Source: an uncultured Acidimicrobiales bacterium (GTDB lineage Bacteria; Actinomycetota; Acidimicrobiia; Acidimicrobiales; SHLQ01). Taken from it: a DNA stretch of 64,000 nt. Position numbers and translations under genes: made by a program. Below, piece after piece: positions 36,651 to 54,895 of the stretch. The notes under the pieces were generated by a model that was given only the letters and a program-made list of their open reading frames with translations, searched no databases and was not told where the DNA came from. Numbering within the stretch: the stretch's first letter is position 1; every line of letters begins with the position of its first letter. Location of the stretch: contig CAKZVC010000037.1 in NCBI GenBank assembly GCA_937922235.1, positions 1-64,000 on the forward strand, written 5' to 3'.

Positions 36651-36661
36651 GGGCCACCTCC

Positions 36662-36682: not shown

Positions 36683-36852
36683 AAGACTAGCCGAGGAATG
36701 TCGAGAGCGCATCTCGGGATCCCAACGTGGCCCTCCCGACCCTGAATTCTGTAACGCAACTGTTATCAATTGATCCTTTCAATGGGTCGAACACCTCTTA
36801 CACACACCGGGCATTTCACCCACTCTGGGTATCCCCTCTACTAAGGCGGACA

Positions 36853-38052: not shown

Positions 38053-38071
38053 CGGCCTGTTCGTCGACGAT

Positions 38072-40177
38072 TCACTCGTCTACAAACGCCAGCGGCCGTC
38101 CCGTATCAACCAGGCTTGCGAGCTCAGCAAAGTCACCTGCAAGTGCCTCGCTCGCAAACACGGTGATGTGAAAGTGATCTCGATAGAGATGCCTACCATC
38201 TAGACGAGTGCGACACCGTTCGGCATCGCACCACTGAGCGCCCGGGTCAACAACCCGGGCGCCAGCGCGTTCTACCCGCTCGCGCACCAACGCAATGGCC
38301 GCCGCCGATTGGTTCTCCTCGGCGGCTTCGATTTCGAGCGTGCACGAATCTGACTCTGCGCCCCATCGGATCACTGAACACGCGCCCGGTTCCCACTGCA
38401 GCGGGCGAGGCACTGGTTGCACAACGACGACCTGCATCCCGGCGTCACGCAGCTGCGACACATACTCGGCTGTTCCCGTTGCCATGAGCACGGCCTTGCC
38501 GTCGGGGGTGTTGTCGAAGGAGGCTGCTGCCGGGGCCTTCGCAAAGCTGAACCGGTCGGTCGAGGTATACCAGTCGACAGCGTGACCAATGATCACGAGG
38601 TCCACCGGTTCGGCCAGGAGCCGCGTGAGGGTTTCATCGTTGTGTGAGCGACACTCGGTCAGTTCGTTGGCCTGCCATCGCACGGCCAGGTCAGCAAAGG
38701 GGCACGAGCTTCGGGTTGTGATCTCGAGATCGAAGTTGATCTGGGCCATACCGTCAATGACGCCTTCACTGAAGTGGCCGGCATTCGAGTCGCCGACGAG
38801 CATTGCTCGACCAACGGGCGCATCTGCTGGGAACGCGCAGGGGTCCAGACCAGGGTCATCGGTCGAATCCAGGTTCCCAAGGCGAGTTGCCGAGTCACAG
38901 CCGTTCGTGGCGTCGTAGTGGAAGGCGAAGTGCGATTCGAACTCGGTGAGGCGCGGCTCGTTCACCTTGTCCCACAACGTCATCGACGCGAGCCCGAGAC
39001 CTACCAACGCAACAACACAACCGAACGCCATGCGGATGACCTGATCCGAATCGAATCGGTCGGAATACCGAGCCGGATTCTCGACAACGCGCATCGAGAG
39101 TTCCGCGGGAATGAGCGACAACAGGGCAGCCATTGCGGCAACAACGGGAGATTCAAGCGGCCCATGAACCGTGAGCGCTGTGGCGAACACGATCATTGGC
39201 CAGTGCCAGAGATACCAGCCGTAGGACAGGTCGCCAATGCGCTGAACGACCGGCGATTCGAGTGCTGCCTGAAACGCACCCTGCTCCCCCGCTATCAGCA
39301 ACAAGACGGTGCCAGAGACTGGAAGCACTGCTGCAAGCCCCGGAAAGGTTGTTCCGGGCACCGAGTACATCAGCGAGCACCAACCCAATACGCCGGCGCC
39401 GACAACGCTGACAGCGACCGCCGAACGCTTCGACAGCGCCCACCCGGAAGGAATGAAGCCAACGATGGCACCTGCGGCGAACTCCCACGCCCGTGTGGGC
39501 GCCGAGAAGAACGCCAATCGCTCATCGATCCGAACCTCGCCGATAAACGTCGAGAACGTGTACGACCACATCTCTGACGCAAGGACATGAGAAACAGCGA
39601 GCGACGCAATGCTGCCCGCTACAAGAACTCCAATGACCGAGCTTCGCCCGGAGCGACCCAAGCGGATACCAACAAGCCACGACATGAGTACCGCTGCTGG
39701 GAACACAAAGTAGAACTGCTCTTCCACCGACAACGACCAGGTGTGAAGAAACGGATTGAGTTCGGCGGAGGCGGCAAAGTAGCCATCCCCAGCAAGCGTC
39801 AGATACGTATTGGCGTTGAAGACTGCAGCGCTCATTGCCGTTTTTGCGCCAAGCTCAAAGCCGTCAACCGGCGCGATGAACGCAGCCAGCGGTGCAACAA
39901 CAACGACCAAGAGCGCGAAGGCGGGCATCAACCGCTTCACGCGACGAATCGCGAACCGCTTCAGATCGATTCGACCCGTGCTTTCCAACTCGAACAGCAG
40001 TGTGCGCATGATGACGAAACCAGAGAGCACGAAGAAGACATCGACCCCGATGAACCCGCCCGGAAACGAAATGCCGGTGTGGTACACCACGACCATCGCG
40101 ACAGCGAGTGCTCGAAGCCCTTGGACGTCACGGCGAAACGACGGACGCGACACCGCTTGTTCTCCGTGCTCTGGCAT
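38072..40177 (-). CDS. OafA/YrhL-type membrane acyltransferase with SGNH domain
   Basis: 701 aa. The N-terminal acyltransferase-3 part (20-390) has the diagnostic RDVQGLRALAVAMVVVYHTG with its His, GFIGVDVFFVLSGFVI, and about ten membrane helices. The C-terminal periplasmic SGNH hydrolase part has MLVGDSNAGHF (GDS block, Ser nucleophile) and HLYRDHFHITVF (Asp/His block). It likely transfers acetyl or similar groups to cell-surface glycans. It lies downstream of the SARP-controlled cluster (115-base gap, same strand); whether it is co-transcribed is unclear. Confidence 0.9.
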   Translation of the reverse strand: MPEHGEQAVSRPSFRRDVQGLRALAVAMVVVYHTGISFPGGFIGVDVFFVLSGFVIMRTLLFELESTGRIDLKRFAIRRVKRLMPAFALLVVVVAPLAAFIAPVDGFELGAKTAMSAAVFNANTYLTLAGDGYFAASAELNPFLHTWSLSVEEQFYFVFPAAVLMSWLVGIRLGRSGRSSVIGVLVAGSIASLAVSHVLASEMWSYTFSTFIGEVRIDERLAFFSAPTRAWEFAAGAIVGFIPSGWALSKRSAVAVSVVGAGVLGWCSLMYSVPGTTFPGLAAVLPVSGTVLLLIAGEQGAFQAALESPVVQRIGDLSYGWYLWHWPMIVFATALTVHGPLESPVVAAMAALLSLIPAELSMRVVENPARYSDRFDSDQVIRMAFGCVVALVGLGLASMTLWDKVNEPRLTEFESHFAFHYDATNGCDSATRLGNLDSTDDPGLDPCAFPADAPVGRAMLVGDSNAGHFSEGVIDGMAQINFDLEITTRSSCPFADLAVRWQANELTECRSHNDETLTRLLAEPVDLVIIGHAVDWYTSTDRFSFAKAPAAASFDNTPDGKAVLMATGTAEYVSQLRDAGMQVVVVQPVPRPLQWEPGACSVIRWGAESDSCTLEIEAAEENQSAAAIALVRERVERAGARVVDPGAQWCDAERCRTRLDGRHLYRDHFHITVFASEALAGDFAELASLVDTGRPLAFVDE

Positions 40178-40292
40178 AGCTCATCTCCGACAGACGCCGT
40201 CTGTTCGCGACCCAACTGTGTTCCTGCTGCTATCGGCACAAGTGCACGAACATCCAGGATTCCTTAACTTTGGGCCTGGCCAGTCCGAGCGG

Positions 40293-42062
40293 CTATGGGA
40301 GATCCTCACAGGCGGTTAGCCGGATCAGCGCGAAAACCCGTGGGCTCCCGCCTGCGGTAACAGCTCGACGTCGAACCGTGCCACCGAGCGTCGTCTCGTC
40401 CGTGATTCGCCCAGCACCATCAACGCTGTAGTACTTCGACCCGATCGTGTCCGACACGTTCCCGCCGACAGTCTCGATCCAGCGTCGTCCGCTGTCCTCG
40501 AAGCTGCCAACGACGATGTCCGTGTGCGAACTTCCCGTCGCAACGTCCGTTGGATTGCGATCAACCCACGCTGCATTCACGCTCGCAAAGCTGTGCGCCG
40601 TCCCGCCCCGGTTCAGGCAAAGGATGTCGCCATCGCGTGGCACGATCTCAGGATCGTTTATGTCGAACAACCAGAATGGACGTGCGGTGTCCGCAGCCGC
40701 GCGGTTTCGGGCGGCCTGAGCGATGTATGCCATGTGTCGCATGTGAAAGAGGAACCCGGCGTCGTGCGGCGGTGGTGGCGTTGGCATCGCCTGACGAACA
40801 CACCAACTGATGAACGCCGCGCTCCAGAACGCTTCGCTTGGGTGATCACTAGCGGAGATCCGTGCAGTCGCCTCCGCTGCAGCCTGATCCATCCCTGTGC
40901 CATCTCGCCAGAATGCGACCAAGTCGTCCATGACTGAGGGGTCAGCCTCAGTCTTAAGGTCGCCGCTTGCTGCCAACCACTCGCCTTGCTTCTCAACCGC
41001 CATCCGAATCATGTTGTGGCGGATCTGGCACCAGTCGATAATCGCATCTTCGGCCTCTAGTTGATAGGACGTTTCCATCTCGGAGAGAGAAAGTCCGACA
41101 TGCGCAAGCTCAGCTGCAGCCGATTCTCCCGCGTACTCGCCGGTTGAATAGAGAGCGACTTCGGCCCTTCGACGGCGTTGAAGTTCGGGCACGACTGCGC
41201 CGTTCTCGTTGACCCACTTGCCCATCTCGTCGGCCACAGACGCATGGTCAGCCGACGAAAGTAGGCCGGGAATGGCACTACGTTGAAAGACCTCTGGCCC
41301 AACATTCAAGATGAACGAGACGAGCGCATCGAACTGATGCTGCTCCAGGCTCGCCCCAACGGACCGGAGAATTTCTTCGGCGGTAGACGCGTCGTCAACC
41401 AGCAGTTCGCGGCCTCGTGCCTTCGAAATGTCGCCGTATTCGTGTAGCTCACTTCCATCGCACGGACCGACGTGGACAAGATGGTGGTACCCAACACGAC
41501 AGTCGCCGGCAGCATCGTCGTACGGCGACGGGCGAAAGCCCTGCAGGCGCCCAATCATGTCGATGCCGCGCGGCGAGGTCGAGTGGATGGCAGAACTCGG
41601 ACCCGTTGGCGTTGCGGTCATCATGGACTCCGCGAGAACTCCGTCCCGGGCCAGTTCATACTGGCTACGCATCCGCGCCCGAACGGTACGCCGGACCGCC
41701 TCATATATGCACTGATTCTGTAGCGAGCGGAAAGCGATCTGGACGCCCTGGCTCACTAGCCAAGTTGCGGTCGGGCGGCCAGCCGAGGGGCGCGGCACAC
41801 GATCCATCGCGTTCGATGCACGGTTCGCCTCGTATGTAGCGACGGCCGCGAGTTCGCGGAGCTCGTCGTTCAACTGGTCGGCCGTCAACCGTTGCACGAA
41901 GAAAAACTCGAGCACGTCCAGAATGAACTGGTCGGTGCCGACAGGCTCTTCACTCACCTGCGGACATCTCTCCGACCAGCCAAAGAGCCCTCCGCCCATA
42001 GCCGATGACGTCCGATCGGTCGTGGTCCGGTACTGATTTGCGATTGCGAGTCTGTTCGCCAT
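40293..42062 (-). CDS. GH24 lysozyme-like / DUF2272 fusion protein
   Basis: 589 aa, no signal peptide. Residues 165-310 match the GH24 phage-lysozyme fold (LQGFRPSPYDDAAG, QHQFDALVSFILNVGPEVFQRSAI, ELQRRRRAEVALY). By alignment with T4 lysozyme the catalytic Glu is Gln174, Asp183 is kept, and Thr is Arg189, so it is probably inactive and may only bind glycan. Residues ~405-580 match DUF2272: FWSAAFISW (412-420), GDILCLNR (478-485), HTDIVV and GGNVSDTI. The frame extends upstream without homology; MANRLAIANQ, 5 bases after the previous stop, is the start. Last gene of the ten-gene SARP-linked cluster. Confidence 0.82.
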   Translation of the reverse strand: MANRLAIANQYRTTTDRTSSAMGGGLFGWSERCPQVSEEPVGTDQFILDVLEFFFVQRLTADQLNDELRELAAVATYEANRASNAMDRVPRPSAGRPTATWLVSQGVQIAFRSLQNQCIYEAVRRTVRARMRSQYELARDGVLAESMMTATPTGPSSAIHSTSPRGIDMIGRLQGFRPSPYDDAAGDCRVGYHHLVHVGPCDGSELHEYGDISKARGRELLVDDASTAEEILRSVGASLEQHQFDALVSFILNVGPEVFQRSAIPGLLSSADHASVADEMGKWVNENGAVVPELQRRRRAEVALYSTGEYAGESAAAELAHVGLSLSEMETSYQLEAEDAIIDWCQIRHNMIRMAVEKQGEWLAASGDLKTEADPSVMDDLVAFWRDGTGMDQAAAEATARISASDHPSEAFWSAAFISWCVRQAMPTPPPPHDAGFLFHMRHMAYIAQAARNRAAADTARPFWLFDINDPEIVPRDGDILCLNRGGTAHSFASVNAAWVDRNPTDVATGSSHTDIVVGSFEDSGRRWIETVGGNVSDTIGSKYYSVDGAGRITDETTLGGTVRRRAVTAGGSPRVFALIRLTACEDLP

Positions 42063-42067
42063 TGTTA

Positions 42068-43375
42068 TTAACCCTTCAAATGTCCGACGTAGTCGAGAAG
42101 TCCCGACGCGTGTAGTTCTACGATTTCGCCTGGAGAGGTCCAGCTCGGATCTACTCCAGAGAGGCTCAACCCGGCTCGACGAAGCGCTTCGAGCACCAGC
42201 TCCGAGCAGAAGAATGCCCCTTCGTTGTTGGTACCAACGCGCAGCTGACCAGCCCGACTCAAACACGCCTGACGGTCGTCGCCATCGAGACGGTTGCAGA
42301 TCGCTCGAGCAAGCTGCCCGGGAGCTACTTGCAGCAATGCCCAACCGTCGTACGAGGTACCGGCATCCGCCTGTTCGTTTAAGAATCGAACGATCTGCGC
42401 GGCCTTTACTGGTGTCATGTCTCGATGCCGATACGCAACCGCAAGGCTGTCATCGTCGAGGGCTTCAGCGAGGCGTATAGCGCGCACACCATCGCCCACC
42501 GCCTCAACAACTATGTCGTCACCCACATACATCGCTGCGTGGCTGACCTCGGCACCGCTAACGGTTCGAATGGCGGCCGAGACAAGCTCCGTCGTCGTCG
42601 ACAGAATGATGTCTCCTGGTTCGAGCACATTGCCGCCGATAGATCGCCCGCCAACGCCAGGGTCGAGTGGGATGTCACTTTGAGCCTCTGCCATAGTCAA
42701 GATCTGATCGATGTCCTCGATGACCTCGGCCGTCCCCAACGGTCGTGACTCGACGGGGATTGGAGCTGTCGAGCGGCGAGACGGAGGTGACTCGACCGTT
42801 TGGTCAAACGAATCGAACCGATCGGCAAGCTCGACCGCGCCGAGGTCGTACGACTTGGCCCGGCTCATGCTCGCCGCGATCTGGTCGAAGATGTCCTGTC
42901 CGTTCTTTGCCTTCGGCACACCACCCGCTTGAGGTGCGCTCGTCGGCGGCGGGCTTGCCGACACGCTTGGCTTCGGCTGAGGAGTGGGCGCTTGTGGTCG
43001 GGCGTCAACTTCCGATAGCGGATCGACCGCCGAAGGAGAGGGCTCCGACGATCCGGAAACGATCGACGAGATATCACGAAGTAGTTGGGCGTCGTCGAGG
43101 AGTTCCGGATCTGCACCAGCGCTTCCGCCACCATTCGATGCAACAGTGCCGCCGTTTCGGGGCCGGGACCGCTCGACGGTTGAGTCGGCACGCGGCCCTT
43201 CGACCATGGGAACTGGCAAGCCCGCGGCAGGAACGTCGTACCCGGTTGTCGTGTCGGCGCCGGACGGCTCGGTGTTGGACTGGCTTCGAGAGACGCGAAC
43301 AGGCTCACCGAGGTCGAAGGAGCGCACTATCGTGCGGGCTCCCTGCTGCACTGCACTGGCTCGATGTCTGCTCAT
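42068..43375 (-). CDS. Permuted papain-like (YiiX/NlpC-P60 superfamily) peptidase
   Basis: 435 aa, no signal peptide. Residues 1-240 are low-complexity and Pro/Ser-rich with short helical patches. The C-terminal domain (250-430) has the permuted papain layout: LEPGDIILSTT, EVSHAAMYVGDD (His279), EAVGDGV (Glu291), and Cys390 in AFFCSELVLEALRRAGL. Such enzymes cleave peptidoglycan peptides, lipid or amide bonds. The ATG overlaps the stop of the upstream gene (ATGA), which selects this start over a longer frame with unrelated residues. The lysozyme-like fusion follows 5 bases downstream. Confidence 0.82.
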   Translation of the reverse strand: MSRHRASAVQQGARTIVRSFDLGEPVRVSRSQSNTEPSGADTTTGYDVPAAGLPVPMVEGPRADSTVERSRPRNGGTVASNGGGSAGADPELLDDAQLLRDISSIVSGSSEPSPSAVDPLSEVDARPQAPTPQPKPSVSASPPPTSAPQAGGVPKAKNGQDIFDQIAASMSRAKSYDLGAVELADRFDSFDQTVESPPSRRSTAPIPVESRPLGTAEVIEDIDQILTMAEAQSDIPLDPGVGGRSIGGNVLEPGDIILSTTTELVSAAIRTVSGAEVSHAAMYVGDDIVVEAVGDGVRAIRLAEALDDDSLAVAYRHRDMTPVKAAQIVRFLNEQADAGTSYDGWALLQVAPGQLARAICNRLDGDDRQACLSRAGQLRVGTNNEGAFFCSELVLEALRRAGLSLSGVDPSWTSPGEIVELHASGLLDYVGHLKG

Positions 43376-44127
43376 CGGTCTTGCTCCTTTGCGTTGTGTT
43401 GGACGGTGAGTCGAACCACCGAGTGCGGGTCGAGCACCATGACGAGCTCGTTGTCTCCGTGAGATAGAAGCGTCTCGGGACACGAGACACAGAGACTGTC
43501 CTCACTGGCCGCGACCGTGACTGCGAGCTCACCGTTTACAACTGCGACAGGTTCGAAACTCTCATCGACGGCGAGGGCGAGGCCGCGTACTTCGAACTCT
43601 GCTACGCCGGGTTCGCTCCGACTAAGGCTCGCAGAACGAACCCGTGGAGGCCGTTTCGCCCGTCTCGAAGACCGGATCGCATCAGCGAGCTCGCTAAAGT
43701 TCGTGCCCTTCTTGACCACATTTCCCAGGTCGACGTTTCGATCCTCCATACGTTCAAGGTCAGCTACTGAACGCACACCAACGCGTCGTAGCTCGCGCTT
43801 GGTCTCGTCATCAACCGGGACGTCTTCAATCGCGATGTCAGTCGAGGCAACCGGGTCCTTAGAGCTCTCACGGACCTGCCGATCGGTGATCGGCGATAGC
43901 TGGATCGAGATCTTCGAGGCTCCCTCTTCGCCGGGTTGAGCTGTGACGAACTCGACGTTCTCTCCGTTGTATGTGGGAAAGATCTGCAGGTCCATCGCCA
44001 TGTCTTTCACGGTGTAGGACAGCGGCTTGTTGATGGCCTTAACACCGAGCGTCTCTCGTGTCTTGTCGAGCTCGACCACAAGCGCGTCCACGAACGACTC
44101 GAGCTTCCATGCGGAGTTCTCGTTCAT
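43372..44127 (-). CDS. Unassigned 251-aa protein with central helix-hairpin-helix-like segment
   Basis: No signal peptide. Three parts: residues 1-100, which look like a compact conserved domain (KLESFVDALVVELDKTRETL, KPLSYTVKDMAMDLQIFPTY, AQPGEEGASKISIQLSPITD); a short HhH-like segment (VDDETKRELRRVGVRSVADLERM, about 104-126) known from pore/ligand-binding hairpins; and a beta-rich tail (GLALAVDESFEPVAVV). Both ends overlap neighbouring genes by ATGA. The first domain is unknown to me. Confidence 0.6.
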   Translation of the reverse strand: MNENSAWKLESFVDALVVELDKTRETLGVKAINKPLSYTVKDMAMDLQIFPTYNGENVEFVTAQPGEEGASKISIQLSPITDRQVRESSKDPVASTDIAIEDVPVDDETKRELRRVGVRSVADLERMEDRNVDLGNVVKKGTNFSELADAIRSSRRAKRPPRVRSASLSRSEPGVAEFEVRGLALAVDESFEPVAVVNGELAVTVAASEDSLCVSCPETLLSHGDNELVMVLDPHSVVRLTVQHNAKEQDR

Positions 44128-44489
44128 GAGGACTCCTGTTCTGTCGGTGAGGGTGCCAATCCCACGACGTCGTCAGTGACCAGGTTCTCGTGCTCGAGAT
44201 CGAGACTCGAGCTCTCGACGAGCGAGAATCGGAGGTTGTGACGGGCGTTTCCAAAGCCGGTCGAGACGTAATACAGCGGTGGGCTAGAGCCCAACGCTAT
44301 GCCGTCTTCCCCCGGGAGAATATCGAGTTCGATGGGCATCTCTATCGACACCGTTTCGGGCACGAACCGAGCCCCATGTCGTCCACTTTCGTCCGACCAG
44401 CGAGCATCAAGCGCGCCGGGCACCATAAGCGCCAGATGTTGATGCAACGGCACCAACGCCTCATCGAGGTCGTCATACGGAGAACTCAT
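44124..44489 (-). CDS. Unassigned 121-aa protein of the SARP-linked cluster
   Basis: A small soluble protein, mostly beta (SIEMPIELDILPG, PPLYYVSTGFGNARHNLRFSLV) after a helical N-terminus. No family recognised. It is coupled by ATGA overlaps to the 54-aa gene before it and the 251-aa gene after it, which makes the start secure and implies fixed stoichiometry with them. Confidence 0.6.
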   Translation of the reverse strand: MSSPYDDLDEALVPLHQHLALMVPGALDARWSDESGRHGARFVPETVSIEMPIELDILPGEDGIALGSSPPLYYVSTGFGNARHNLRFSLVESSSLDLEHENLVTDDVVGLAPSPTEQESS

Positions 44490-44650
44490 GAAAGCGAGTT
44501 CCTTGCCTCGGAGACTGGCTGCAGCTCGACAGGAAGAAGGACGACCTTGGTCACGAACGTGACCTTGTACCCATCGAGTTCAAGGCCCTTCAGTTCGTCC
44601 TCGACCGATAGTGATCGACCAACAACGCCAGGGGACGTGTGTGACTTCAT
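44486..44650 (-). CDS. Tiny coupled gene (54 aa)
   Basis: MKSHTSPGVVGRSLSVEDEL at the start, then a predicted helix and strand (DGYKVTFVTKVVLLPVELQP) and a polar end. ATG and stop each overlap a neighbour as ATGA (44647-44650 and 44486-44489), which is strong evidence that it is real although very short. No family recognised. It may be an adaptor or a structural peptide of the cluster. Confidence 0.65.
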   Translation of the reverse strand: MKSHTSPGVVGRSLSVEDELKGLELDGYKVTFVTKVVLLPVELQPVSEARNSLS

Positions 44651-46695
44651 CCTTCGTTCTCCATTCCAACAAAAACGGCGTCTACGGGAAGGAGTAGTGG
44701 CTTTGGGATCGGCTCGAGTACGTCGACCGCTCCACGATCAGAGACCGACACCACTCGGTGGAGTGATACCTCGATTGGAGCCATTACAGGAAACACCCAC
44801 AAGCTGCCGCGCTCTTCGGTTCGCCCGCGCAGCTCAATTGAGGTGCTGGCTTGGCGTTCGTACGGTGACGCGCAGGCCGCGACCGCATCGAGCTCGGCTG
44901 GGGTCCAGGAGATCCCAGTTCGGCTCAATGTCAACGCAGCAAGCTCGCTGGGGTCAAGCTCCATGCCACTCTTCAGGAAGCCGCCCCACACGACTTTCGA
45001 ATCGGATTGCCGTGACTGGTCGTCGACGAGTTTGAATTTCGTTTCCATGCGTCCATTGCCGACACCGCTCTGACCGATCCGGTAGTAGTACCGAGTCGAC
45101 GCGCTGAGCTCCCATCGGTTGAGGTCCGGTGCGCCGCCCTCCCAGATCCGTTGCCAGAAGGCACGGTGGCCAGTCGGGTCTGTAAGCGCAAAGGATTCCC
45201 CCGAACGATCCCCGAAGCCTGACACGACGAAGTCATCGACAACGCTGAGTTGCTGCACCGCACGAGTCGGAGTTGTGTAGACAGCTGCGTCACGACCGGT
45301 CCACAAGACGTCAACCGAGAGGTTGAGGTCCTTGGTAGAGGGAAGTAGCGCAGCCGTCGCAGCGTCGATGCGGAGGTCATGCGATCGATTCAGCCAAACA
45401 TCCGATAGCTCGATCCGCCGTTCAAGAACAGGTTCGCCAGAATCAGCGTCACTGAACTCTAGGTGCGCCACCACATGGGCGATCGGCCGGTCGGGGCTCT
45501 CGAGAGCCGTCCCGAGCCGCAGCTCGAACACCAAATCGCCGCCCCTGCCGTAGAGGTTTCTCCGACCAAGTCCTGGGACATCATCGGGCGGGATCAGCGC
45601 CGCATCGATGCGAGCGTCGACGATGGGAGACGAGCTCAGCGCCCGGGTTCGGACGCTCGCAGCCCCTGAGAGGAACGGTGCCACACCGGCTCCCCCTCCC
45701 CCGTTTGCTCCAAGCAAGGAGATCAGAAGTTGGCGCTCGCCTGCGGACAGAGATTGCTTGATGCGGTTGTTGGTGACCTCTTCGGCCTGCCGTCGAGCGC
45801 CGGAGATCGCATGGATCAACCGAACCGGATGATCCATGTACGTCTCAAACATTTCGGGTGCCTTTTGCAGCAGAGGAGTCAGCGCCTTGAGCACCGGACC
45901 GGCAACGGCTCCAACAAGTCCTGCGATCATCGGACCGGTAAGCACACCACCGTCGACGGCAAGTGCGCCGGAGTGGCCGACCGGTCTCGGCCCAGCCATC
46001 GACGGATCACGAGCCACCACTGCCGGAGCGCATACGCATGGAGCCGGCGATACCGCCGACGCCGGAGCGGTGAACGTCGGCTGAGCGAGCGGGGTCGGAG
46101 CCTGCGCGGCACCAATGAGGCCTTTGAGTAGCGGTCCGATCATCTCCAAGACGCCGCCGACTCCGGCCTGAACGTTTTCATCACCAGCAAGCGACACGAG
46201 ATCCTCGCCAAGCGGCGCAAGCTGGCCTAGGAGTCCGCTGAGTTCACTCCAGAACATCGCAGAGCTAATTGGCTGCTCGTCTGCGCTGAACGCGATCGCC
46301 CGTGAGCGTTGGTCGGCTGCCCCTTGGGCCCGTGACATGTTCATCGGAGTTCCGAAGTCGGGCGTGGTTGCCATAGGAAGATAGATGCTTCGAACGCTCG
46401 ACCACGCTGGCGAAGTACCTTCTGCATCCTTGAATGACAGCAGTTGGAAGAACTGGTTGTCACGAGTGACAAGGGACGGGTCGACCTCGATGTCGAACCA
46501 CGTTTGAAAAGCACCGGTTCCGACCCGTTCGAGCATTCCGCTGCGGTGGCTGACATGATCAATCACCTCGCCCATGGGCGTCGACGACCGGTCCGACCCA
46601 AGCAGCCACTGGAAGAAGCGATTGCTGCCCGTGTCGACCCGAATGGTTGACGCAGAGTTTCCGGGGTTCACCTCGACGATTCGTGCGAGCGCCAT
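44647..46695 (-). CDS. Unassigned 682-aa protein of the SARP-linked cluster
   Basis: Soluble. The N-terminus (~1-115) looks beta-rich with a Trp/Phe-rich core (RFFQWLLG, FQTWFDIEVDPSL, NQFFQLLSFKD). A helical region follows, then a Pro/Ala linker containing CVC (about 195-240), a hydrophobic helical segment (GPMIAGLVGAVAGPVLKALTPLL, about 255-277), and a long C-terminal beta-rich half (VFELRLGTALES, HVVAHLEFSD, KVVWGGFLKSGMELDPSEL). No family recognised. It lies 9 bases after the 323-aa gene; its stop overlaps the 54-aa gene. Confidence 0.6.
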   Translation of the reverse strand: MALARIVEVNPGNSASTIRVDTGSNRFFQWLLGSDRSSTPMGEVIDHVSHRSGMLERVGTGAFQTWFDIEVDPSLVTRDNQFFQLLSFKDAEGTSPAWSSVRSIYLPMATTPDFGTPMNMSRAQGAADQRSRAIAFSADEQPISSAMFWSELSGLLGQLAPLGEDLVSLAGDENVQAGVGGVLEMIGPLLKGLIGAAQAPTPLAQPTFTAPASAVSPAPCVCAPAVVARDPSMAGPRPVGHSGALAVDGGVLTGPMIAGLVGAVAGPVLKALTPLLQKAPEMFETYMDHPVRLIHAISGARRQAEEVTNNRIKQSLSAGERQLLISLLGANGGGGAGVAPFLSGAASVRTRALSSSPIVDARIDAALIPPDDVPGLGRRNLYGRGGDLVFELRLGTALESPDRPIAHVVAHLEFSDADSGEPVLERRIELSDVWLNRSHDLRIDAATAALLPSTKDLNLSVDVLWTGRDAAVYTTPTRAVQQLSVVDDFVVSGFGDRSGESFALTDPTGHRAFWQRIWEGGAPDLNRWELSASTRYYYRIGQSGVGNGRMETKFKLVDDQSRQSDSKVVWGGFLKSGMELDPSELAALTLSRTGISWTPAELDAVAACASPYERQASTSIELRGRTEERGSLWVFPVMAPIEVSLHRVVSVSDRGAVDVLEPIPKPLLLPVDAVFVGMENEG

Positions 46696-46704
46696 ACGTC
46701 GTCA

Positions 46705-47676
46705 TCACCCTTGGGCTCCGGCAGCATCGGCGGCCGGCTGGAGAGCGGCAACGCCACCATCGCCGTACATCTGAGCGAAGTTGTCCATCTTGAAGTAGTC
46801 GGACTTGAACTGAATGTTCACCTTGCCCGTCAACTCGGCGAACAGTTCGTCGTTCGCAGTCTGGTTACTCGTGACGACGTTGATGTTGGTGTTGGTGTTG
46901 TTGATACTGGCGCCACCGAAGACACCAAAGCCGTACGATGCCTCAACGGTGTTCACGTTCGTGTTCGTATTCGAGAACGTGTCGGCGCTGTTGCGCGAAG
47001 CAGTTATGCGGAACTTGACCCCGGCTTCAACCTCACCCTTGTCAATAACAAGGCGGCTGACACCCATCAAGATGACCTCACGAAGAGCGGCTCGATGCTC
47101 CTTCGCCATCGCGATCTTCGCCTCGACGATCTTCGCCTTCACTTCGGCATCGTCCATATCGACAGGCTCGCCCTCAGGCGTACTGAGCACCATCTTTGAA
47201 CTACCGTCGGCATTCTGCTCCATCGTCATGCCGTACTGCGGCGATGGCGATTCGACCAAGTAAGCGAAAGCGTCCTCGTCAGCGACTTGCTTGATGAAGT
47301 CCGCCGATGTCTTTGTTGCCTCGCGGAGAAGTCGGATGTAGTCGTCGGTCTGGGCCTTGCCGACTGCCAGATTGGCGTCGAACACCGACTTCAGTAGGTC
47401 ACCCACAAACTTGGGGAAATCGACGGAGTCGACTAGATCCTCGAATGCATCGACCGAGTTATCGAAACCCGGATCGTAATCTTCGAAGTCCTCCACAAGT
47501 GCTCGTGCGACGGGGTGCGGTTCGCTCAACGATGCGACGTTCTCTTGCACGACGTCCAGATAGACCTGTCGCTGCTCGGTGAGCGGCATTGCCTTGAACG
47601 AGGCGCTCCGTGACAGCGTGTCACGCGCTTGCTCTCGAGCAAGGTCATGTACGGCGTTTGGAATTGACTTAGCCAT
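46705..47676 (-). CDS. Unassigned 323-aa protein with Asn/Thr-rich paired segments
   Basis: Soluble. Residues 1-215 are mainly helical and acidic. From ~225 the sequence turns beta-rich with two near-repeats, SNTNTNVNTVEASYGFG and NNTNTNINVVTSNQTAN, then VNIQFKSDYFKMDNFAQMYG and an Ala/Gly tail. The ATG has the best Shine-Dalgarno in this cluster (AAAGGAGG, 7-base gap), which suggests high expression, as for a structural subunit. No family recognised. Confidence 0.6.
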   Translation of the reverse strand: MAKSIPNAVHDLAREQARDTLSRSASFKAMPLTEQRQVYLDVVQENVASLSEPHPVARALVEDFEDYDPGFDNSVDAFEDLVDSVDFPKFVGDLLKSVFDANLAVGKAQTDDYIRLLREATKTSADFIKQVADEDAFAYLVESPSPQYGMTMEQNADGSSKMVLSTPEGEPVDMDDAEVKAKIVEAKIAMAKEHRAALREVILMGVSRLVIDKGEVEAGVKFRITASRNSADTFSNTNTNVNTVEASYGFGVFGGASINNTNTNINVVTSNQTANDELFAELTGKVNIQFKSDYFKMDNFAQMYGDGGVAALQPAADAAGAQG

Positions 47677-47697
47677 GAGCTTGCCTCCTTTCGGTTG

Positions 47698-49572
47698 TTA
47701 GAAGGACCAGTCGTCAGCGCCGCCAAAGCCAGCTGGCACCCCAACCGGGGAACCATTCATGCCTGGTATTGCGCCGTAGTCCGCCATGGGGTCTGCCGCT
47801 GGATTATTCGAGTTCCCAAAGAGCGAGCGGGCCGAATCCTCGGCTTGCTCGCTAGCGATGATGAACGCCTCAACGTGACTTACGAGCGACGAGAATTTCG
47901 CATCGTCAGCGATCGATGCACCGTCATACTCCGCAACAGCCGTGAGGATCTGGTGGCCATAAATTGCCTTGCTGACCAACGACGTTGTTGCGATGCTGCT
48001 GCCTCGATCTTCCTGAAGAAGGTTTTCAACGGCACGCCAGTATGAGGTCGAGTTGGTTTGGCCGAACTGTTGAACGACTTCGGGTTCAGAGAACAACCGT
48101 CTGATGATGAAGTCGAGCTCGTTGTACATCACCGGGGCCATCGCCTTTGCTAACCCGAAGGTCTGACTCGACAAGTTGTATTGCAGGTCTTCGATGACAC
48201 GACCGAGGGGGATGCGAGACACGTATTCAGCGGGACGATCCGACCGCTCCACTTTCTCGATGTATCGAACGGTCTCGACCATCAGCGAGTCCCAGAGTGT
48301 CGAGAACGTTTGGTTATGGCTCGCCTGGCCAAAGATCTCGGTGCTCCCGTAGTCGAACACCTGCCGGTAGAACATCAGGCGATCTTCTTCGCGCGTCCTT
48401 GTCGAGTTATCCGCTCCCGGCACTGGGAACTCATACTCGTAGCCGTACTGGTGCAGCGCTTTCAAAAGGCCAGCGCTTCTTGGATTGAACGGTCGACCGC
48501 TTCGATCCCGATTTCTGCTTTTCTCGAGGAGCAGATTTGCTGCGTGGTAGCCACCGAGCTGATCGCCGATCACCATCACGTAGAAGAGCTGGGCCGCACA
48601 GTGCACGTTCGAGCGATCGACGGCGGAGCTATCGCGTGGTTCTTTGTGATACACGACGGCGTAGTCGAGTGGCGTCGTAGCGGTACTCGCCAACTCGATC
48701 GAATGAGTAGTCCGGCTTCGATAGTTGAGGAGCGCAGAACTTACGAGGGAGTCTCGGTTTGAGTCGGTTAACGCAGGCCCGTCTCCATCGAAGTACGACT
48801 GCAGATGGGTCCGTTCCTCCGGCGACACGGAGATCGCAAGCGAAGCGATCGCCTGGTCAACCTGAAAGATCGGTTCACGCCGAAAGGTGAAGTCTTCGAT
48901 GAACTCAGTGAGCGATTCTCGGAACGCCCCGCTTGCGAAGCTGAAGTTCGTTGCGGGTCCAACGGTAAGTAGGTACGTGTTCCATTCGAAGTCTGGACCC
49001 TCTTCGGCATCGGTGTCGGTCTCGACCCGCTTGCGTTCTACATAGTTCTGAGCGGCGAGTTCGAGGATGAACGGGTAAAACAGCTGAGCACCAGTATTGC
49101 CGTCCGAGTCGGTGAGCCAGTCTGCGATCGCTTCGTCTTCGGTCAGTTCCACGAGATAGACGGCCATCGCATACAAGAAGTTGAAGAAGACATCCTCGTT
49201 GAGGATGGACCGCTCGTTCAGTGGCAGAGACATGTCCTTCAACAATCGCTGCACTCTGGTCATCCGACCGATCTCGCCGGCACGAGACAGCAGCAAGTCA
49301 AGCGAGATCGCATCGTTGGGATACCGGTTTGGCGTGTCCGGAGTCTGCAGGAACGGATCTCCAATCAACTTGCGGAGGCCGTCTAACCACTCGGCGTAGC
49401 GCTTGTTGTCGCCACCCTCAACCGGAATCGCAAACCGGACGGTTGAGAATAGCTCGGCGGTCTCTTCAATCGCCCGTGTTGCTTGAGGGTCCAAAACCGG
49501 CTCACGCTCGCGTGCCGACAATGTCGGCACCCCGAGTTTGAAACCGTTGCTCTTGTGGTCTGTATGAGTCAT
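47698..49572 (-). CDS. Unassigned 624-aa protein of the SARP-linked cluster
   Basis: A large, mostly helical soluble protein (RVQRLLKDMSLPLNERSILNEDVFFNFLYAMAVYLVELTED near 105-145) with acidic patches and a Gly/Pro/Asn-rich tail (SNNPAADPMADYGAIPGMNGSP). No catalytic motif or signal peptide seen, no family recognised. An SD-like AAGGCGG precedes the ATG, which starts 2 bases after the subtilase stop, so the two are coupled. Confidence 0.6.
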   Translation of the reverse strand: MTHTDHKSNGFKLGVPTLSAREREPVLDPQATRAIEETAELFSTVRFAIPVEGGDNKRYAEWLDGLRKLIGDPFLQTPDTPNRYPNDAISLDLLLSRAGEIGRMTRVQRLLKDMSLPLNERSILNEDVFFNFLYAMAVYLVELTEDEAIADWLTDSDGNTGAQLFYPFILELAAQNYVERKRVETDTDAEEGPDFEWNTYLLTVGPATNFSFASGAFRESLTEFIEDFTFRREPIFQVDQAIASLAISVSPEERTHLQSYFDGDGPALTDSNRDSLVSSALLNYRSRTTHSIELASTATTPLDYAVVYHKEPRDSSAVDRSNVHCAAQLFYVMVIGDQLGGYHAANLLLEKSRNRDRSGRPFNPRSAGLLKALHQYGYEYEFPVPGADNSTRTREEDRLMFYRQVFDYGSTEIFGQASHNQTFSTLWDSLMVETVRYIEKVERSDRPAEYVSRIPLGRVIEDLQYNLSSQTFGLAKAMAPVMYNELDFIIRRLFSEPEVVQQFGQTNSTSYWRAVENLLQEDRGSSIATTSLVSKAIYGHQILTAVAEYDGASIADDAKFSSLVSHVEAFIIASEQAEDSARSLFGNSNNPAADPMADYGAIPGMNGSPVGVPAGFGGADDWSF

Positions 49573-49574
49573 GG

Positions 49575-50879
49575 CTACCGCCTTGATCCTTCCAATTCGT
49601 AGTTCAGGAGTTTGATTGCGTCAGTGAGATTGATCGTTCCGAAACCGGACCGGTCGTTGCGCCGGTTTCGGTCAAGGCCGTCTGATGAGTTCGCCAGGAT
49701 GTACTTCACCTGGGCGTCAGTCAGTTCGGTCGCCTGGTCGAGGGCAACCGACTTCAAGAGGGCGCAAGCTCCGGATACGAAGGGCGCGGCCTGGGAGGTT
49801 CCGGAACTTGCTGCGTAGCCACCATCCCGGTAGGAACTGAGAATCTCAGACCCCGGTGCAAGAACGGAGATCGGAGCGCCATACGAGGAGTACTCAGCTA
49901 GTTGCCCGGACCGGTCGATGGCGCCCACGGCAATCACGCCGGGCAATGCACTCGGGTAGTAGCGGTTGTTCGCTCCGTCGTTGCCTGAGGCCGCAACAAT
50001 GGTCACACCCTTTCGAAGCGCATACTCAACAACGTCTGCATGTGGCAGACCGCCTCCACCGTGTCTGATTCCGAGACTCATGTTGATGACGTCGGCGCCC
50101 TGGTCGACTGCCCATTTGATTCCGGCATTGATGTTGTCGACGAGCCCAGCTCCGACAAGTGACTCGCCTTGGCGCAGGGCGGCAAGCACGCGGACGGCAA
50201 GCACGTCACAACCGGGCACCACCCCAGTAGGCATCTTCTTACCCGCTCCAGCGACGATGCCGCTGACGTGTGTGCCGTGACCGACTTCATCGGGGGCAAC
50301 ATCATCTACTTCGTACAAGTCTCCAACGAAGCCCGTTGTGTCGAGCCCGTCGAAGTCGACCATGTCTTTGCTGCGCCGGACTCGACCAACGAGTTCAGGA
50401 TGTTCCCCATCAACGCCGGTATCCAGAATTGCAACTGAAATTGAGGGGTCGCCCTTGGTAATCGCATGGGCATACGGAAGACCGATTGCGTCGCCCGCCC
50501 ATCGAGACCCTCGTGCCGACGATTGAGAATGCGAGCATCGCGGCACTGCCGTCCGACCAACTCGACCAAGTCGTACCCATTCAACCTGTGGAAGTGCCCG
50601 CAACTCATCGACGATTCCGGCGGGTACTCGACGAAGGTCCTGCAGGATGATCCGGTAGGTCCGATCGAGCCCTGCGAGACGCTCATCGTCGTCAGGATCA
50701 TCATGTGCGAGCGAATACTCGGCCGTCACCCAGAATGCGAGTCCAGCGTCTCGAAATATGCGATCGACGTGAGCATCGACAGACTCGACCACGTTGGTCT
50801 TGTCCGAGATGAAGCGCTCCCAATAGGGAACCGCAGCGTCTAGCGGACGCCGCAATCGCATCACGAGGTGGGGTTTCAT
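49575..50879 (-). CDS. S8 (subtilisin-like) peptidase, cytoplasmic
   Basis: 434 aa, no signal peptide. After a ~140-residue N-terminal part (PHLVMRLRRPLDAAVPYWERF; includes a beta-alpha segment DRTYRIILQDLRRVP that could act as an inhibitor-like prodomain) comes an intact S8 domain: Asp153 (AILDTGVDGEHPEL), His201 (GHGTHVSGIVAGA), Asn300 (ASGNDG) and Ser362 (SGTSQAAPFVSG). It sits 9 bases after the SARP gene and 2 bases before the 624-aa gene. It may mature or activate other cluster proteins. Confidence 0.92.
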   Translation of the reverse strand: MKPHLVMRLRRPLDAAVPYWERFISDKTNVVESVDAHVDRIFRDAGLAFWVTAEYSLAHDDPDDDERLAGLDRTYRIILQDLRRVPAGIVDELRALPQVEWVRLGRVGRTAVPRCSHSQSSARGSRWAGDAIGLPYAHAITKGDPSISVAILDTGVDGEHPELVGRVRRSKDMVDFDGLDTTGFVGDLYEVDDVAPDEVGHGTHVSGIVAGAGKKMPTGVVPGCDVLAVRVLAALRQGESLVGAGLVDNINAGIKWAVDQGADVINMSLGIRHGGGGLPHADVVEYALRKGVTIVAASGNDGANNRYYPSALPGVIAVGAIDRSGQLAEYSSYGAPISVLAPGSEILSSYRDGGYAASSGTSQAAPFVSGACALLKSVALDQATELTDAQVKYILANSSDGLDRNRRNDRSGFGTINLTDAIKLLNYELEGSRR

Positions 50880-50888
50880 ATCGTGAAC

Positions 50889-51665
50889 CTACGGACGCGG
50901 TGTCGCCGCGGCGTCGCTGATCTGTGTCCGCCGCGTCACCGTGGCGTCACCGCCTGACCCAAACCCCGGCTGGTGAGCAAAAGTCTGAGTCGCGGCACTC
51001 TCGAGCATCTCGGCAATTTCGCGACCTGGCGCTAGACCGAGCTCTGCGTTCAGCAGATGAGACCACGCGTCGAACTGCTGCATGGCTGCCGCTGGATCCC
51101 CTTCAGCCAGGTGCGCTTCGATTAAGAGCGAACGAGTGTTTTCGCGAAGAGGCGCAATAGCAATCCCTTGCCAGGCCAGGTCGATTGCTCGAGCGTGTTG
51201 AGCCGCGTGGAGATATCCACGACATCGATCTTCGATTGCGTGTATGACCTGTTGTCTGTATCGCTCTCGATCTGTGGCAAGCCACTCGTCATACCATCCG
51301 GGAAGAAGTTCTAAGTCGGCTGAGGCTGCCCGAGCATCACACTTTTGCTCGAGGTGCTCGAGGTCGAGCCGAACGAGCGGGTGTAGCCAGATGCTCGAGG
51401 CATCTGAACACAGCAGGTCTCCGACCTTGCGTTGGACACGCCAAAGCGACGACCTCAGATTTGCGGCGGCACGATGCTCGGAGTGCTCAGGCCAGAGGTT
51501 GCCGAAAACGTAGGATCGCCTAAGTCGGCTAGGACCGCGAAGCGCTACGAACGCAACGAGTCTCTGCTGGCTCGGAGCAAGGTGGACCGGGATAGCCCCC
51601 ATATCGCAGCGAAACCCACCAAGTAACTCGAGTCGAATGTCGTCAGCTTGTATTTGTGGCCCCAT
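50889..51665 (-). CDS. SARP-type transcriptional regulator (wHTH + BTAD)
   Basis: 258 aa. An OmpR-like winged helix (DDIRLELLGGFRCDMGAIPVHLAPSQQRLVAFVALRG, SEHRAAANLRSSLWRVQRKV) is followed by a bacterial transcriptional activation domain with helical repeats (EHLEQKCDARAASADLELLPGWYDEWL, IEAHLAEGDPAAAMQQFDAW). SARPs activate specific target operons, usually next to their own gene. Here it leads the ten-gene unit on the same strand, 9 bases before the subtilase. A Shine-Dalgarno GGGAG lies 6 bases before the ATG. Activator of this unit by inference. Confidence 0.85.
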   Translation of the reverse strand: MGPQIQADDIRLELLGGFRCDMGAIPVHLAPSQQRLVAFVALRGPSRLRRSYVFGNLWPEHSEHRAAANLRSSLWRVQRKVGDLLCSDASSIWLHPLVRLDLEHLEQKCDARAASADLELLPGWYDEWLATDRERYRQQVIHAIEDRCRGYLHAAQHARAIDLAWQGIAIAPLRENTRSLLIEAHLAEGDPAAAMQQFDAWSHLLNAELGLAPGREIAEMLESAATQTFAHQPGFGSGGDATVTRRTQISDAAATPRP

Positions 51666-51816
51666 GTCAAACTCCCGCTCGTGTGTCGTCGAAGACTCAG
51701 AGCGCGGTGGGCAACTGGTGATACAAGATTCATTCGGAAACGATCTGAGCGAGCGCTACATCATTCCGGGCAGCGGATAGCGGCGCCGTTGTGCCTACCT
51801 GGGCCGATCCTTCTGG

Positions 51817-51822
51817 CACACT
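51817..51822 (+). promoter_or_regulatory. -10 box of a leaderless promoter (CobW-like gene)
   Basis: CACACT ends 6 bases before the GTG start. Confidence 0.45.
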
Positions 51823-51828
51823 CATACC

Positions 51829-52728
51829 GTGAGTGAAACCGCCAAGACCCCGATCACCGTGCTCGGCGGGTGGCTAGGTGCAGGTAAGACAACGATGGTC
51901 AATCGCCTGCTCGCCGCCACGAACGAGCGCCTCGCAATCATCGTGAACGACGTTGGCGACGTGAACGTCGATGCCGAGTTCCTTCGCGAGGAGGCCGGCG
52001 ACGACAGTGTGATCGAGCTGACCAATGGCTGTGTCTGCTGCAAGATCGGCGACGACTTGCAGTCGACCATCTACCAACTCACCGCTCGCACGCCCGCGCC
52101 AGACCGCATTGTGCTCGAGGCCAGCGGCGTTGCTGACCTCTTTCCCATCACTACGTATCTCGATCACTCCAAGGTGACGATCGACGCCGTGATCGCACTC
52201 GCCGATCCCGACAACTTCGCGTACCGGTCGTCTGGCCCGCCGTACGGCTCGCTTATGCGGGCCCAGCTTGCTGGAGCTGATCTCGTCGTCGCAACCAAGC
52301 TCGACCTCCTCCCCGCCGACCAGCACGACGCGGCGCTGGACGGCCTTCGTGAGTTCACCAAGGCACAAGTCATCCCCGCGAGCGCCGACCCGAACTGGCT
52401 CAACACGGTCATGCTTGGGAGCCACGCAAACGAATCTGTTCCAGGCCTTCACGCCGCCGCTGCCCCGGTCGCCACGGCCACGTGGCGACCAAGCGGACCC
52501 GTCGACGCCACCGCGCTTCGGTCAACACTGCGCCGATCTGGACTTCTACGCGCAAAAGGCACGCTGTCCACCGAAGCGGGGGCAATTCGCGTTCACCTGG
52601 CTGGCGGTCGCGTCACGATCGAGCCGCTCACTGTCGAGGCTGCCCCGGTCAACGCACTTGTTCTCATTGGCGACAGCACCGAGCAGCTCAAGAACGTCCT
52701 ATCGACTCTAGAAACGACCGCCATCTGA
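51829..52728 (+). CDS. CobW/COG0523-family G3E GTPase
   Basis: A 299-aa metal-handling GTPase, often a zinc or cobalt metallochaperone. Walker A is GGWLGAGKTT, the metal-binding CxCC motif is GCVCCKIG, and the guanine-specificity motif is TKLD. The C-terminal CobW_C domain is short. The start is a GTG after a CACACT box at leaderless distance. It is divergent from the SARP cluster by 163 bases. The metal and client are not revealed. Confidence 0.9.
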   Translation: MSETAKTPITVLGGWLGAGKTTMVNRLLAATNERLAIIVNDVGDVNVDAEFLREEAGDDSVIELTNGCVCCKIGDDLQSTIYQLTARTPAPDRIVLEASGVADLFPITTYLDHSKVTIDAVIALADPDNFAYRSSGPPYGSLMRAQLAGADLVVATKLDLLPADQHDAALDGLREFTKAQVIPASADPNWLNTVMLGSHANESVPGLHAAAAPVATATWRPSGPVDATALRSTLRRSGLLRAKGTLSTEAGAIRVHLAGGRVTIEPLTVEAAPVNALVLIGDSTEQLKNVLSTLETTAI

Positions 52729-52780
52729 GCTCATACTCTTGAGATAGCTGGCGAGAAATTAGCGGAACGAGGTTCGTGCA

Positions 52781-53017
52781 ATGGCAACAGTCCTGGTCAA
52801 GGTTGCAGCAGCGCTCGCACTACTGGGGGTGATGTGGTTTCTGCCCATGTGGGCTGCACTTTTGCTCGCGCTTGTGGGGCTTCCGTTCATTGGCCGGCTA
52901 AACGTGGCCCAAGGTCGCCTTGCGATCGGTGGCGGGTTTGGACACGTGCACACGTTCCAACATGTCGAGGGCATGTCCGTTCCACAGTGCAGTAAGTGCG
53001 GCGCCTGGGACGAGTAA
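52781..53017 (+). CDS. Small membrane protein with terminal CxxC (78 aa)
   Basis: Two hydrophobic stretches (VKVAAALALLGVMWFLPMW and AALLLALVGLPFIGRL) form one or two membrane helices. The C-terminal tail ends CSKCGAWDE, a CxxC that could bind zinc or iron. No family recognised. GAGG lies about 9 bases before the ATG. It follows the CobW gene by 52 bases and may receive metal from it, but this is only a guess. Confidence 0.6.
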   Translation: MATVLVKVAAALALLGVMWFLPMWAALLLALVGLPFIGRLNVAQGRLAIGGGFGHVHTFQHVEGMSVPQCSKCGAWDE

Positions 53018-53037
53018 TGCGTTGTCTCCCCTGACGG

Positions 53038-53904
53038 CTAGATGAGTGCCGGGCTTCGGCCCCGTTCGTTCTCATGGGCGGGCCGCCGCGTCCGAAACCA
53101 CTCGGCGATCGCTATTCCAAGCGGAGCGGACAACCAAATGCACACCAGAATTGCGCCGCCCTCGATGTTGCGCATCAGCGGTCCGAGGACAAAAAGCATG
53201 ACGCGGAAGAGCCAAAATGCGCCCCACATCGAGCCGAGGAAGCGAAACATCCAGACGCGATGCGCACCGATGTCGCCTGAACGTGCGGTTGTGGCCGTCT
53301 TGATCGCGCATCCGTACACAAAGAACGCCATCGTGAAGAAGCCGAGCATCGACCACACTCCGCCGTACGCCGAAACCGAGCTGTGCTCACCTGCGAGCAG
53401 AACTGCACAGAGCGTTCCGAGAGTCACGGCACCAAACGTGACCCGACCAAGGATCCGGTGCCGAGACGCGTTTGTGCCAGTGCCGGGTTTAGCCAGCTGA
53501 ACGTGTGCCAGCACAAACGCCAGACTGTTGAAGGCAATGTGCACGAACAGCAGCGACCGACGCAGGGTTGGGCCATTGGCGAATCGCTCATGGAAGGCGA
53601 CACCCCATGCCGGATGACTGTCGTAGTTGTCGGCGATCGAGCACGCGTTGTCCGGACAGGTGGCAAGAGCCGCCGGAAGCTCGCCTTGACTCGAGACACC
53701 TGCATTGTCGAGCAGATCGTAGATACTGACGAAAAACGCTATTGCGTCGCCCTGACCGCGCACGAAGTACCCGAGGTTCAACACCAGCATGAGCCCAATG
53801 CCAACTAACGAGAAACCTCGCCAGTTGGACACCTTCAGGCCATAGGCCAGCAAGCCCGCCCACACCACCAGCGCTCCATAGAACAGCAACGTTTCAACCG
53901 GCAT
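53038..53904 (-). CDS. Membrane protein, DUF2306-like
   Basis: 288 aa with about seven membrane helices. Middle signature (LFVHIAFNSLAFVLAHVQLAKPGTGTNASRHRILGRVTFGAVTLG, then DIGAHRVWMFRFLGSMWGAFWLFRVML) resembles DUF2306, with HR-L-GR between helices. The frame extends upstream without homology, so MPVETLLFYGALVVWAGLL is chosen as start. 16 bases after the two-helix protein gene on the same strand, so probably an operon. Function unknown. Confidence 0.72.
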   Translation of the reverse strand: MPVETLLFYGALVVWAGLLAYGLKVSNWRGFSLVGIGLMLVLNLGYFVRGQGDAIAFFVSIYDLLDNAGVSSQGELPAALATCPDNACSIADNYDSHPAWGVAFHERFANGPTLRRSLLFVHIAFNSLAFVLAHVQLAKPGTGTNASRHRILGRVTFGAVTLGTLCAVLLAGEHSSVSAYGGVWSMLGFFTMAFFVYGCAIKTATTARSGDIGAHRVWMFRFLGSMWGAFWLFRVMLFVLGPLMRNIEGGAILVCIWLSAPLGIAIAEWFRTRRPAHENERGRSPALI

Positions 53905-53920
53905 GTTTCCCCCGAACCTG

Positions 53921-54748: not shown

Positions 54749-54753
54749 AGTCC

Positions 54754-54759
54754 ACTTTA
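54754..54759 (-). promoter_or_regulatory. -10 box of a leaderless promoter (two-helix membrane protein)
   Basis: On the minus strand TAAAGT is followed by 5 bases and the ATG. Confidence 0.5.
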
Positions 54760-54832
54760 CCAGGATGGATGTGCCCTGCGTCACAATACCGTTTCTTGGC
54801 CCTGAGAACGTGCCCGTCAAAGAACGCGAAAA

Positions 54833-54864
54833 GGCCCTGCCAGTGGCGGGATACCGGCAGGGCC
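54833..54864 (-). terminator. Rho-independent terminator of the dehydrogenase gene
   Basis: On the minus strand GGCCCTGCC and GGCAGGGCC form a perfect 9-bp stem (14-base loop) followed by TTTT, about 32 bases after the stop codon. The best terminator in the window. Confidence 0.8.
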
Positions 54865-54895
54865 CTTCCGAGCGTGTGCGCCGAAGCGCAGTGAA

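Follow-up and report, generated by a model that had tools for sequence, protein, structure and literature searches.

A conserved, horizontally acquired gene cassette with an S8 protease and interchangeable effectors: a possible new bacterial system for conflict or self-lysis

We analysed a stretch of 64,000 nucleotides from an uncultured Acidimicrobiales bacterium (contig CAKZVC010000037.1), which we refer to as the window and within which all positions are numbered. Its minus strand holds a cassette of genes, labelled g1 to g10 in the order of transcription. The cassette is one conserved and co-inherited unit: relatives were collected at 84 loci with two principal gene orders (type A, to which the window belongs, and type B), and four or five families that are unnamed in the libraries searched form one such unit across several phyla. 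It may represent a bacterial system for conflict or self-lysis that is as yet undescribed, and in the open-access literature no title was found that describes this cassette. The features are listed below, with lengths in amino acids (aa).

36652..54895: variable segment of 18.2 kb with the cassette, missing in three of the five same-genus genomes examined; the exact ends of the insert are unsure.
50889..51665, minus strand: g1, 258 aa, SARP-type regulator (BTAD, Pfam), a local addition outside the conserved cassette.
49575..50879, minus strand: g2, 434 aa, S8 protease (Pfam) with an N-terminal domain; D153, H201, S362; no evident signal peptide.
47698..49572, minus strand: g3, 624 aa, core protein without assignment, profile match in 83 of 84 loci; a paralogue, g3', occurs in type B loci.
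46705..47676, minus strand: g4, 323 aa, core protein, candidate ring or pore former by its AlphaFold2 (AF2) model and hairpin statistics.
44647..46695, minus strand: g5, 682 aa, N-terminal beta domain, partly hydrophobic middle of low confidence, C-terminal beta domains.
44486..44650, minus strand: g6, open reading frame (ORF) of 54 aa; no relatives found in Pfam or with profiles over the 84 loci.
44124..44489, minus strand: g7, 121 aa, small core protein by alignment and by profile match in 27 of 84 loci.
43372..44127, minus strand: g8, 251 aa, core adaptor-like protein; weak Trypco2 and TIG matches in relatives.
42068..43375, minus strand: g9, 435 aa, putative effector class 1, with a shared module (residues ~92-235) and a C-terminal permuted papain-like C92 domain.
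40293..42062, minus strand: g10, 589 aa, putative effector class 2, with an N-terminal NRL tag, a degenerate lysozyme domain and a DUF2272 papain-like domain.

All ten genes were present as ORFs on the minus strand, from 51665 down to 40293. An earlier interpretation of this DNA, the sequence-only reading, had described ten same-strand genes with gaps of 2-21 bases or ATGA overlaps. We can confirm this layout: from g1 to g10 the intergenic gaps are 9, 2, 21, 9, −4, −4, −4, −4 and 5 bases with the starts of g9 and g10 corrected. The most likely start of g9 is 43375, where the 435-aa form overlaps g8 in an ATGA and has AAAGGAG upstream, as opposed to a 471-aa form starting with GTG. For g10 the start was corrected to 42062 (589 aa) from that of a 683-aa form beginning with TTG.

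A tblastn search with g4 on 72,556 plasmids returned four records, three near-identical cyanobacterial ones and one from Burkholderia pyrrocinia, and a separate search with g8 found the same four. An alignment of four g4 sequences, scanned against genome contigs, yielded 117 relatives, of which 80 were kept. Together with L005, L006, L007 and the window these make up the 84 loci, many of them cut by contig ends. Iterative profiles matched g2 in 73 loci, g3 in 83, g4 in 84 (by selection), g5 in 30, g7 in 27, g8 in 67, g9 in 28, g10 in 13 and g1 in 8. The types were assigned after inspecting the gene orders, and the ORF caller used for the loci picks antisense ORFs in places; a conservation-weighted caller was dropped for its antisense picks in GC-rich loci.

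The check proposed with the sequence-only reading was whether the genes co-occur in the same order in unrelated taxa. For type A they do: the order S8-g3-g4-g5-g7-g8-g9-g10 is kept on one strand in 31 of 31 loci, window included, with not every gene visible in each as many loci are cut or lack some genes. In the g4 tree, computed without L005, the other 30 type A loci lie on one side of a 100/100 branch. Type B comprises 52 loci, mostly from Pseudomonadota, with the arrangement payload gene-g4-small-g8-S8-g3-350aa-g4-g4-g3'-g4. The complete series g4 g8 g2 g3 g4 g4 g3 g4 was seen in 21 of these 52; the others are cut, partly masked or different. Common to both types are S8, g3, g4 and g8, and type B has up to four g4 paralogues. 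Furthermore, the distances of g2, g3, g4, g5 and g8 correlate among type A loci (r 0.63-0.96, 19-25 loci per pair; 0 of 2000 permutations for each of the ten gene pairs). These results bear on the explanation that the cassette is a transferred block of genes whose parts act separately, with no joint mechanism. Several proteins without an assigned function would be in keeping with it, but the order conservation in 31 of 31 loci and the correlated divergence across phyla speak against it and we consider it very improbable.

Positions 10890-13269 of L007, a locus from the window's own phylum, contain two g4 genes and a g8-like gene of 20% identity that was missed by the g8 profile. Within 20 kb there is no S8 or g3 match, and the neighbouring ORFs, read from their translations, are ATP-grasp-like and esterase-like; L007 is possibly a third, smaller arrangement. 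A conserved gene of ~350 aa follows g3 by position in 29 type B loci (L055:7459-8520), with insignificant Pfam matches only in the one member scanned (Trp_DMAT 0.042). Cyanobacterial type A loci have an extra gene between S8 and g3 (L030:6578-8119, with PG_binding_1 in L030) and another, without assignment, after g5 (L030:13387-14727). In Tranquillimonas a 1003-aa ORF without g5 profile match or Pfam match stands at the place of g5 (L074:11173-14184).

The record titles of the relatives span nine bacterial phyla. In the g4 tree the phyla are intermixed and the window is joined to Thetidibacter (Roseobacteraceae) at 100/96, a placement to be read with caution given long branches and bins with foreign contigs. 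Thetidibacter was not singled out by other genes: nearest by identity, all within a few per cent, were L010, L011, L014 and L009 for g2, L008 and L010 for g3, L013 and L008 for g5, and L013 for g8. A search with a single g4 sequence found no relative in 97 other genomes from genus to order and one in 395 other genomes of the phylum sample. We then compared the flanks of the segment (36651 and ~54896) for the five same-genus genomes whose flank was fetched. The flanks are 18.2 kb apart in the window and 75, 59 and 246 bases apart in L112 (G006), L113 (G005) and L116 (G004), respectively. As the stretch is thus missing from three of five genomes of the same genus, we conclude that it was horizontally transferred. 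G010 keeps a cobW-like piece between the flanks, which indicates that the spot is variable and leaves the insert ends unsure; in G009 the contig ends after 3 kb that bear no similarity. No foreign composition was evident, with a GC content at third codon positions of 0.58-0.71 for the ten genes and 0.64-0.78 for eight window genes outside the segment. A phage origin was rejected: no g4 relative was found in 50,697 phage records or, by a pattern search and within the limits of that pattern, in a viral collection.

The last genes of the cassette are, judged by their sequences, interchangeable effectors preceded either by a common module or by a short NR[FLI] tag, and g9 and g10 appear to be two swappable effector classes. 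The assignments of an S8 peptidase, a permuted papain-like peptidase and a lysozyme/DUF2272 fusion in the sequence-only reading were borne out by Pfam (S8, C92, Phage_lysozyme, DUF2272). For g9 the Peptidase_C92 match (9.9e-7) is just over its cut-off, and the His and Cys of the C92 motifs are present. For g10 the matches are stronger for both Phage_lysozyme (3.5e-24) and DUF2272 (1.3e-15). However, the lysozyme motif of g10 has Gln and Arg in place of the Glu and Thr seen in nine other aligned payload lysozymes, residues which we take to be catalytic in the T4-type motif. We therefore rejected an active lysozyme in the window; the domain is probably inactive. The same reading had pointed to lytic modules at the end of the cassette, and these are still the likely business end of the co-inherited unit. 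The portions of PMC10318531 used here group DUF2272 with papain-like families including peptidoglycan amidases such as Tse1, with Ser replacing Cys, and term C92 peptidases lipid amidases. The target of g9 and g10 may be lipid as well as wall.

Wall cutting by the payload relatives is well supported. Of 67 downstream ORFs, 41 make up the type A payload set, in which the two from the window were shortened to their probable starts; near-copies (L015, L022, L028 and some of L030) were excluded, as were ORFs that seemed to be outside. One protein may count under several Pfam families, which were Phage_lysozyme (10), M15_4 (6), Glucosaminidase (4), M15_3, M15_2 and the AvrRpt2-like C70 (3 each), Ntox11 and C92 (2 each), and DUF2272, DUF4056, EndoU and VanY (1 each). 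Nine out of 20 type A payload proteins that were scanned singly had no family at 0.001. For type B there are 34 first genes in the 52 loci, most of them cut by the locus edge. The 30 that were scanned (without L065, L067, L070 and L075) gave C70 in 24, C39_2 in 9, C92 in 3, Trypsin_2 and DUF3238 in 2 each and Amidase_2 in 1. Fusions of the g10 type join the lysozyme domain to M15 (L008, L009, L010), to DUF2272 (window), to glucosaminidase with or without C70 (L014, L016, L017) or to C70 with C92 (L013). Twelve g9-type proteins have a module in common: window residues ~92-235 have matches at E<=0.001 in 10 of the other 11, and the last one, L020, is linked through others. Their C-termini differ, with C92 in the window, M15 in L008, L010, L014 and L020 (shown singly) and DUF4056 in L012. 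The alignments of L016 and L017 with L014 run to the very end, as does that of L023 with the window, though L023 has no Pfam match; L013 and L019 have no assignment and the ORF of L009 is short.

The tag NR[FLI] is enriched at the start of the payload proteins. Within the first 20 residues it occurs in 17/41 payload, 5/524 core and 3/429 other ORFs, and within the first 40 residues in 17/41, 21/524 and 5/429, respectively; a start-anchored form was found in 14/41, 10/551 and 2/429. The motif was first spotted by eye, kinship inflates these counts and the other ORFs include antisense ones. A related motif, NRLLALEQELL, is repeated up to three times in cyanobacterial payload proteins.

The payload could also be read as a stored, protease-released lytic set that serves programmed autolysis or wall remodelling in host development or predation and not conflict. 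In its favour, the relatives have many wall hydrolases for different bonds, and the record titles include Calothrix, Nostoc, Chitinophaga and Lysobacter, which are filamentous or predatory genera. On the other hand, the Ntox11 and EndoU toxin domains, the patchy occurrence (no match to the single g4 sequence in 97 other genomes, sampled from genus up to order) and the empty site in same-genus genomes all fit an accessory system better, and we regard this explanation as unlikely.

The protease g2 matches Peptidase_S8 at 2.2e-49 (Pfam), and there are further matches to a PHROG protease and to a broad PADLOC subtilase model. The columns of the Asp-His-Ser triad are kept in all 58 aligned S8 proteins of 400-520 aa, window included. 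The BTAD match of the regulator g1 (3.1e-14, Pfam) is above the cut-off, whereas the alignment to the AfsR model, which covers the N-terminal winged-helix part, starts at residue 6 and scores far below it. The sequence-only reading had made the SARP regulator part of the system, and we reject this membership: g1 matched in none of the 30 other type A loci, although at least four of these are cut so as to start at or after g2. The g1 profile matched 8 of the 84 loci, and the seven matches outside the window are all in type B loci, five of them on the opposite strand.

For g3 to g8 we encountered insignificant matches only in Pfam, PHROGs, NCBIfam and PADLOC. Profile-profile comparison of g3, g4, g5, g7, g8 and the extra type A and B genes gave g3 with g3' as the sole match (hhalign 99.9%). 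The AF2 model of g4 combines helices with a long amphipathic beta-hairpin, with a mean predicted local distance difference test (pLDDT) of 75.5 and a predicted template modelling score of 0.47. The alternation along the hairpin had z>0 in 72 of 72 family members and z>2 in 63, and g4 is a candidate pore former via its beta-hairpins. Searches of PDB sequences, with g4 alone and with profiles of g4, g3, g5 and g8, gave no significant match. Two names for g4 were discarded: DUF6683 (14/72 members match, best 8.2e-5, Pfam) is too weak for naming, and a suspected likeness to DUF2589 was supported by no scan. One of the 72 g4-family proteins matched Endonuclea_NS_2 at 0.0028. For g5, VIA gave Ig-like domains, a generic assignment that barely covers the N-terminal part. 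The g8 family shows Trypco2 in 7/46 (best 1.7e-4) and TIG in 8/46 members, and the window member has neither.

Signal peptides were judged by hydropathy (mean of 1.4 over 19 residues). The threshold was passed only by g5 (residues 179-197 and 243-276) and by g2 (217-235, inside the S8 domain), and by this criterion none of the ten proteins has an evident signal peptide, as the sequence-only reading had noted. Neither did we recognise an immunity or export family among them in Pfam, PHROGs, NCBIfam or PADLOC, though immunity proteins are often unnamed. Taken together, these absences make inward the simplest direction of action, with lysis of the producer upon a trigger. Such a model also follows a theme in the parts of PMC7159879 considered here, where lysozyme and papain-like wall peptidases are among the effectors recruited by one peptidase-coupled conflict system.

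The most likely interpretation is a conflict system with a protease as its trigger, in which enzymes would cross a membrane pore to act on the cell itself or on a neighbour. Our more specific proposal, held tentatively and at less than even confidence, is that these genes carry a conflict cassette, acquired by horizontal transfer, whose action ends in self-lysis. We infer that g3, g4, g5, g7 and g8 would form a cytoplasmic assembly, on which g9 would be held by its shared module and g10 by its short N-terminal NR[FLI] tag. An insult would activate the S8 protease, which would license the assembly. The long beta-hairpins of g4 would then open a pore in the cytoplasmic membrane, through which the payload would reach the envelope and lyse the producing cell in abortive or altruistic lysis.

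Several observations weigh against this proposal. The tip of the g4 hairpin has a pLDDT below 50 and is charged, with no depletion of charge, and the model had no significant fold match in Foldseek. The wall activity of the window's own g9 and g10 is unsure. Outward delivery is nearly as likely; here the assembly would be a pore or particle, either released or dependent on contact, that brings tagged enzymes of the wall-cutting and toxin kinds into other cells. The variety of the payload is toxin-like, the N-terminal tag is cargo-like and Ig-like domains as in g5 occur in some adhesins, although they are generic. The weak Foldseek list for the hairpin-rich g4, none of it significant, is headed by a phage tail protein, binary-toxin pores and flagellar ring proteins. 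What holds us back from outward delivery is the lack of an evident secretion signal by hydropathy, of a recognised immunity family in the ten proteins, of a contractile sheath in the 87.5% complete genome and of relatives in phages or the pattern-searched viral collection.

If the tag and the module load enzymes onto the core, this would be a testable new route to the envelope for proteins without signal peptides, and further effectors could be found by their tag. The type B architecture with up to four g4 genes offers a natural comparison. It is possible, if somewhat doubtful, that the cassette encodes an effector machine of a categorically new kind. Such a machine would be a modular assembly in the cytoplasm with tag-docked, interchangeable wall-cutting or toxin enzymes and a beta-barrel ring across the membrane, fired by its own S8 protease. 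It would descend neither from phage tails nor from any known secretion system, and it would be present in two architectures and, by record titles, nine phyla.

The neighbours in the segment are an RTX calcium-binding repeat protein (36727-38052), an acyltransferase-SGNH protein, CobW and a DUF2306 membrane protein. Elsewhere in the window, GC skew is largest among 2-kb steps at 22001-24000 (−0.144), and GC is down to 0.53 at 32001-34000, at a 799-aa ORF (31761-34160) for which Pfam gave nothing at 0.01.

Compared to known systems, the cassette resembles extracellular contractile injection systems, as far as the portions of PMC11495950 used here describe them, in that cargo with N-terminal signals adjoins structural genes. 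It differs from them in that the genome, 87.5% complete, showed no sheath and the ten proteins include no recognised tube, baseplate or AAA family; a contractile system was rejected, with Phage_sheath_1 at 0/1 for the bacterium's own genome. With beta-pore and ring-collar proteins such as binary-toxin pores, aerolysin, lysenin and FliF the g4 model shares one long amphipathic beta-hairpin per subunit, whereas the missing fold match, the helical remainder, the charged tip and the up to four type B paralogues set it apart. Polymorphic toxins likewise have a shared module followed by interchangeable C-terminal enzymes, with Ntox11, EndoU, papain-like and wall-hydrolase domains. In contrast to them, the cassette has neither a known export module nor a recognised immunity family, and its payload follows a conserved core (S8, g3, g4, g5, g7, g8).

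We finally compared the cassette to the peptidase-coupled conflict systems of Kaur et al. 2020 (PMC7159879), which in the parts of that source used here include System 3, with NucA and trypsin or S8 peptidases, and Trypco2-bearing VMAP ternary conflict systems. No NucA, MoxR, vWA or STAND component was recognised among the ten proteins: Pfam gave no NucA-type nuclease of System 3 among them, and the MoxR ATPase and vWA protein of VMAP were found neither among them nor among ten neighbouring ORFs, the rest of the genome not being searched. Further differences are that g3, g4, g5 and g7 are unnamed families and that the payload tag is a short motif. Within the same parts of the source, the likeness lies in the core peptidase, in the Trypco2-like adaptor of some g8 relatives and in the lysozyme and papain-like effectors.

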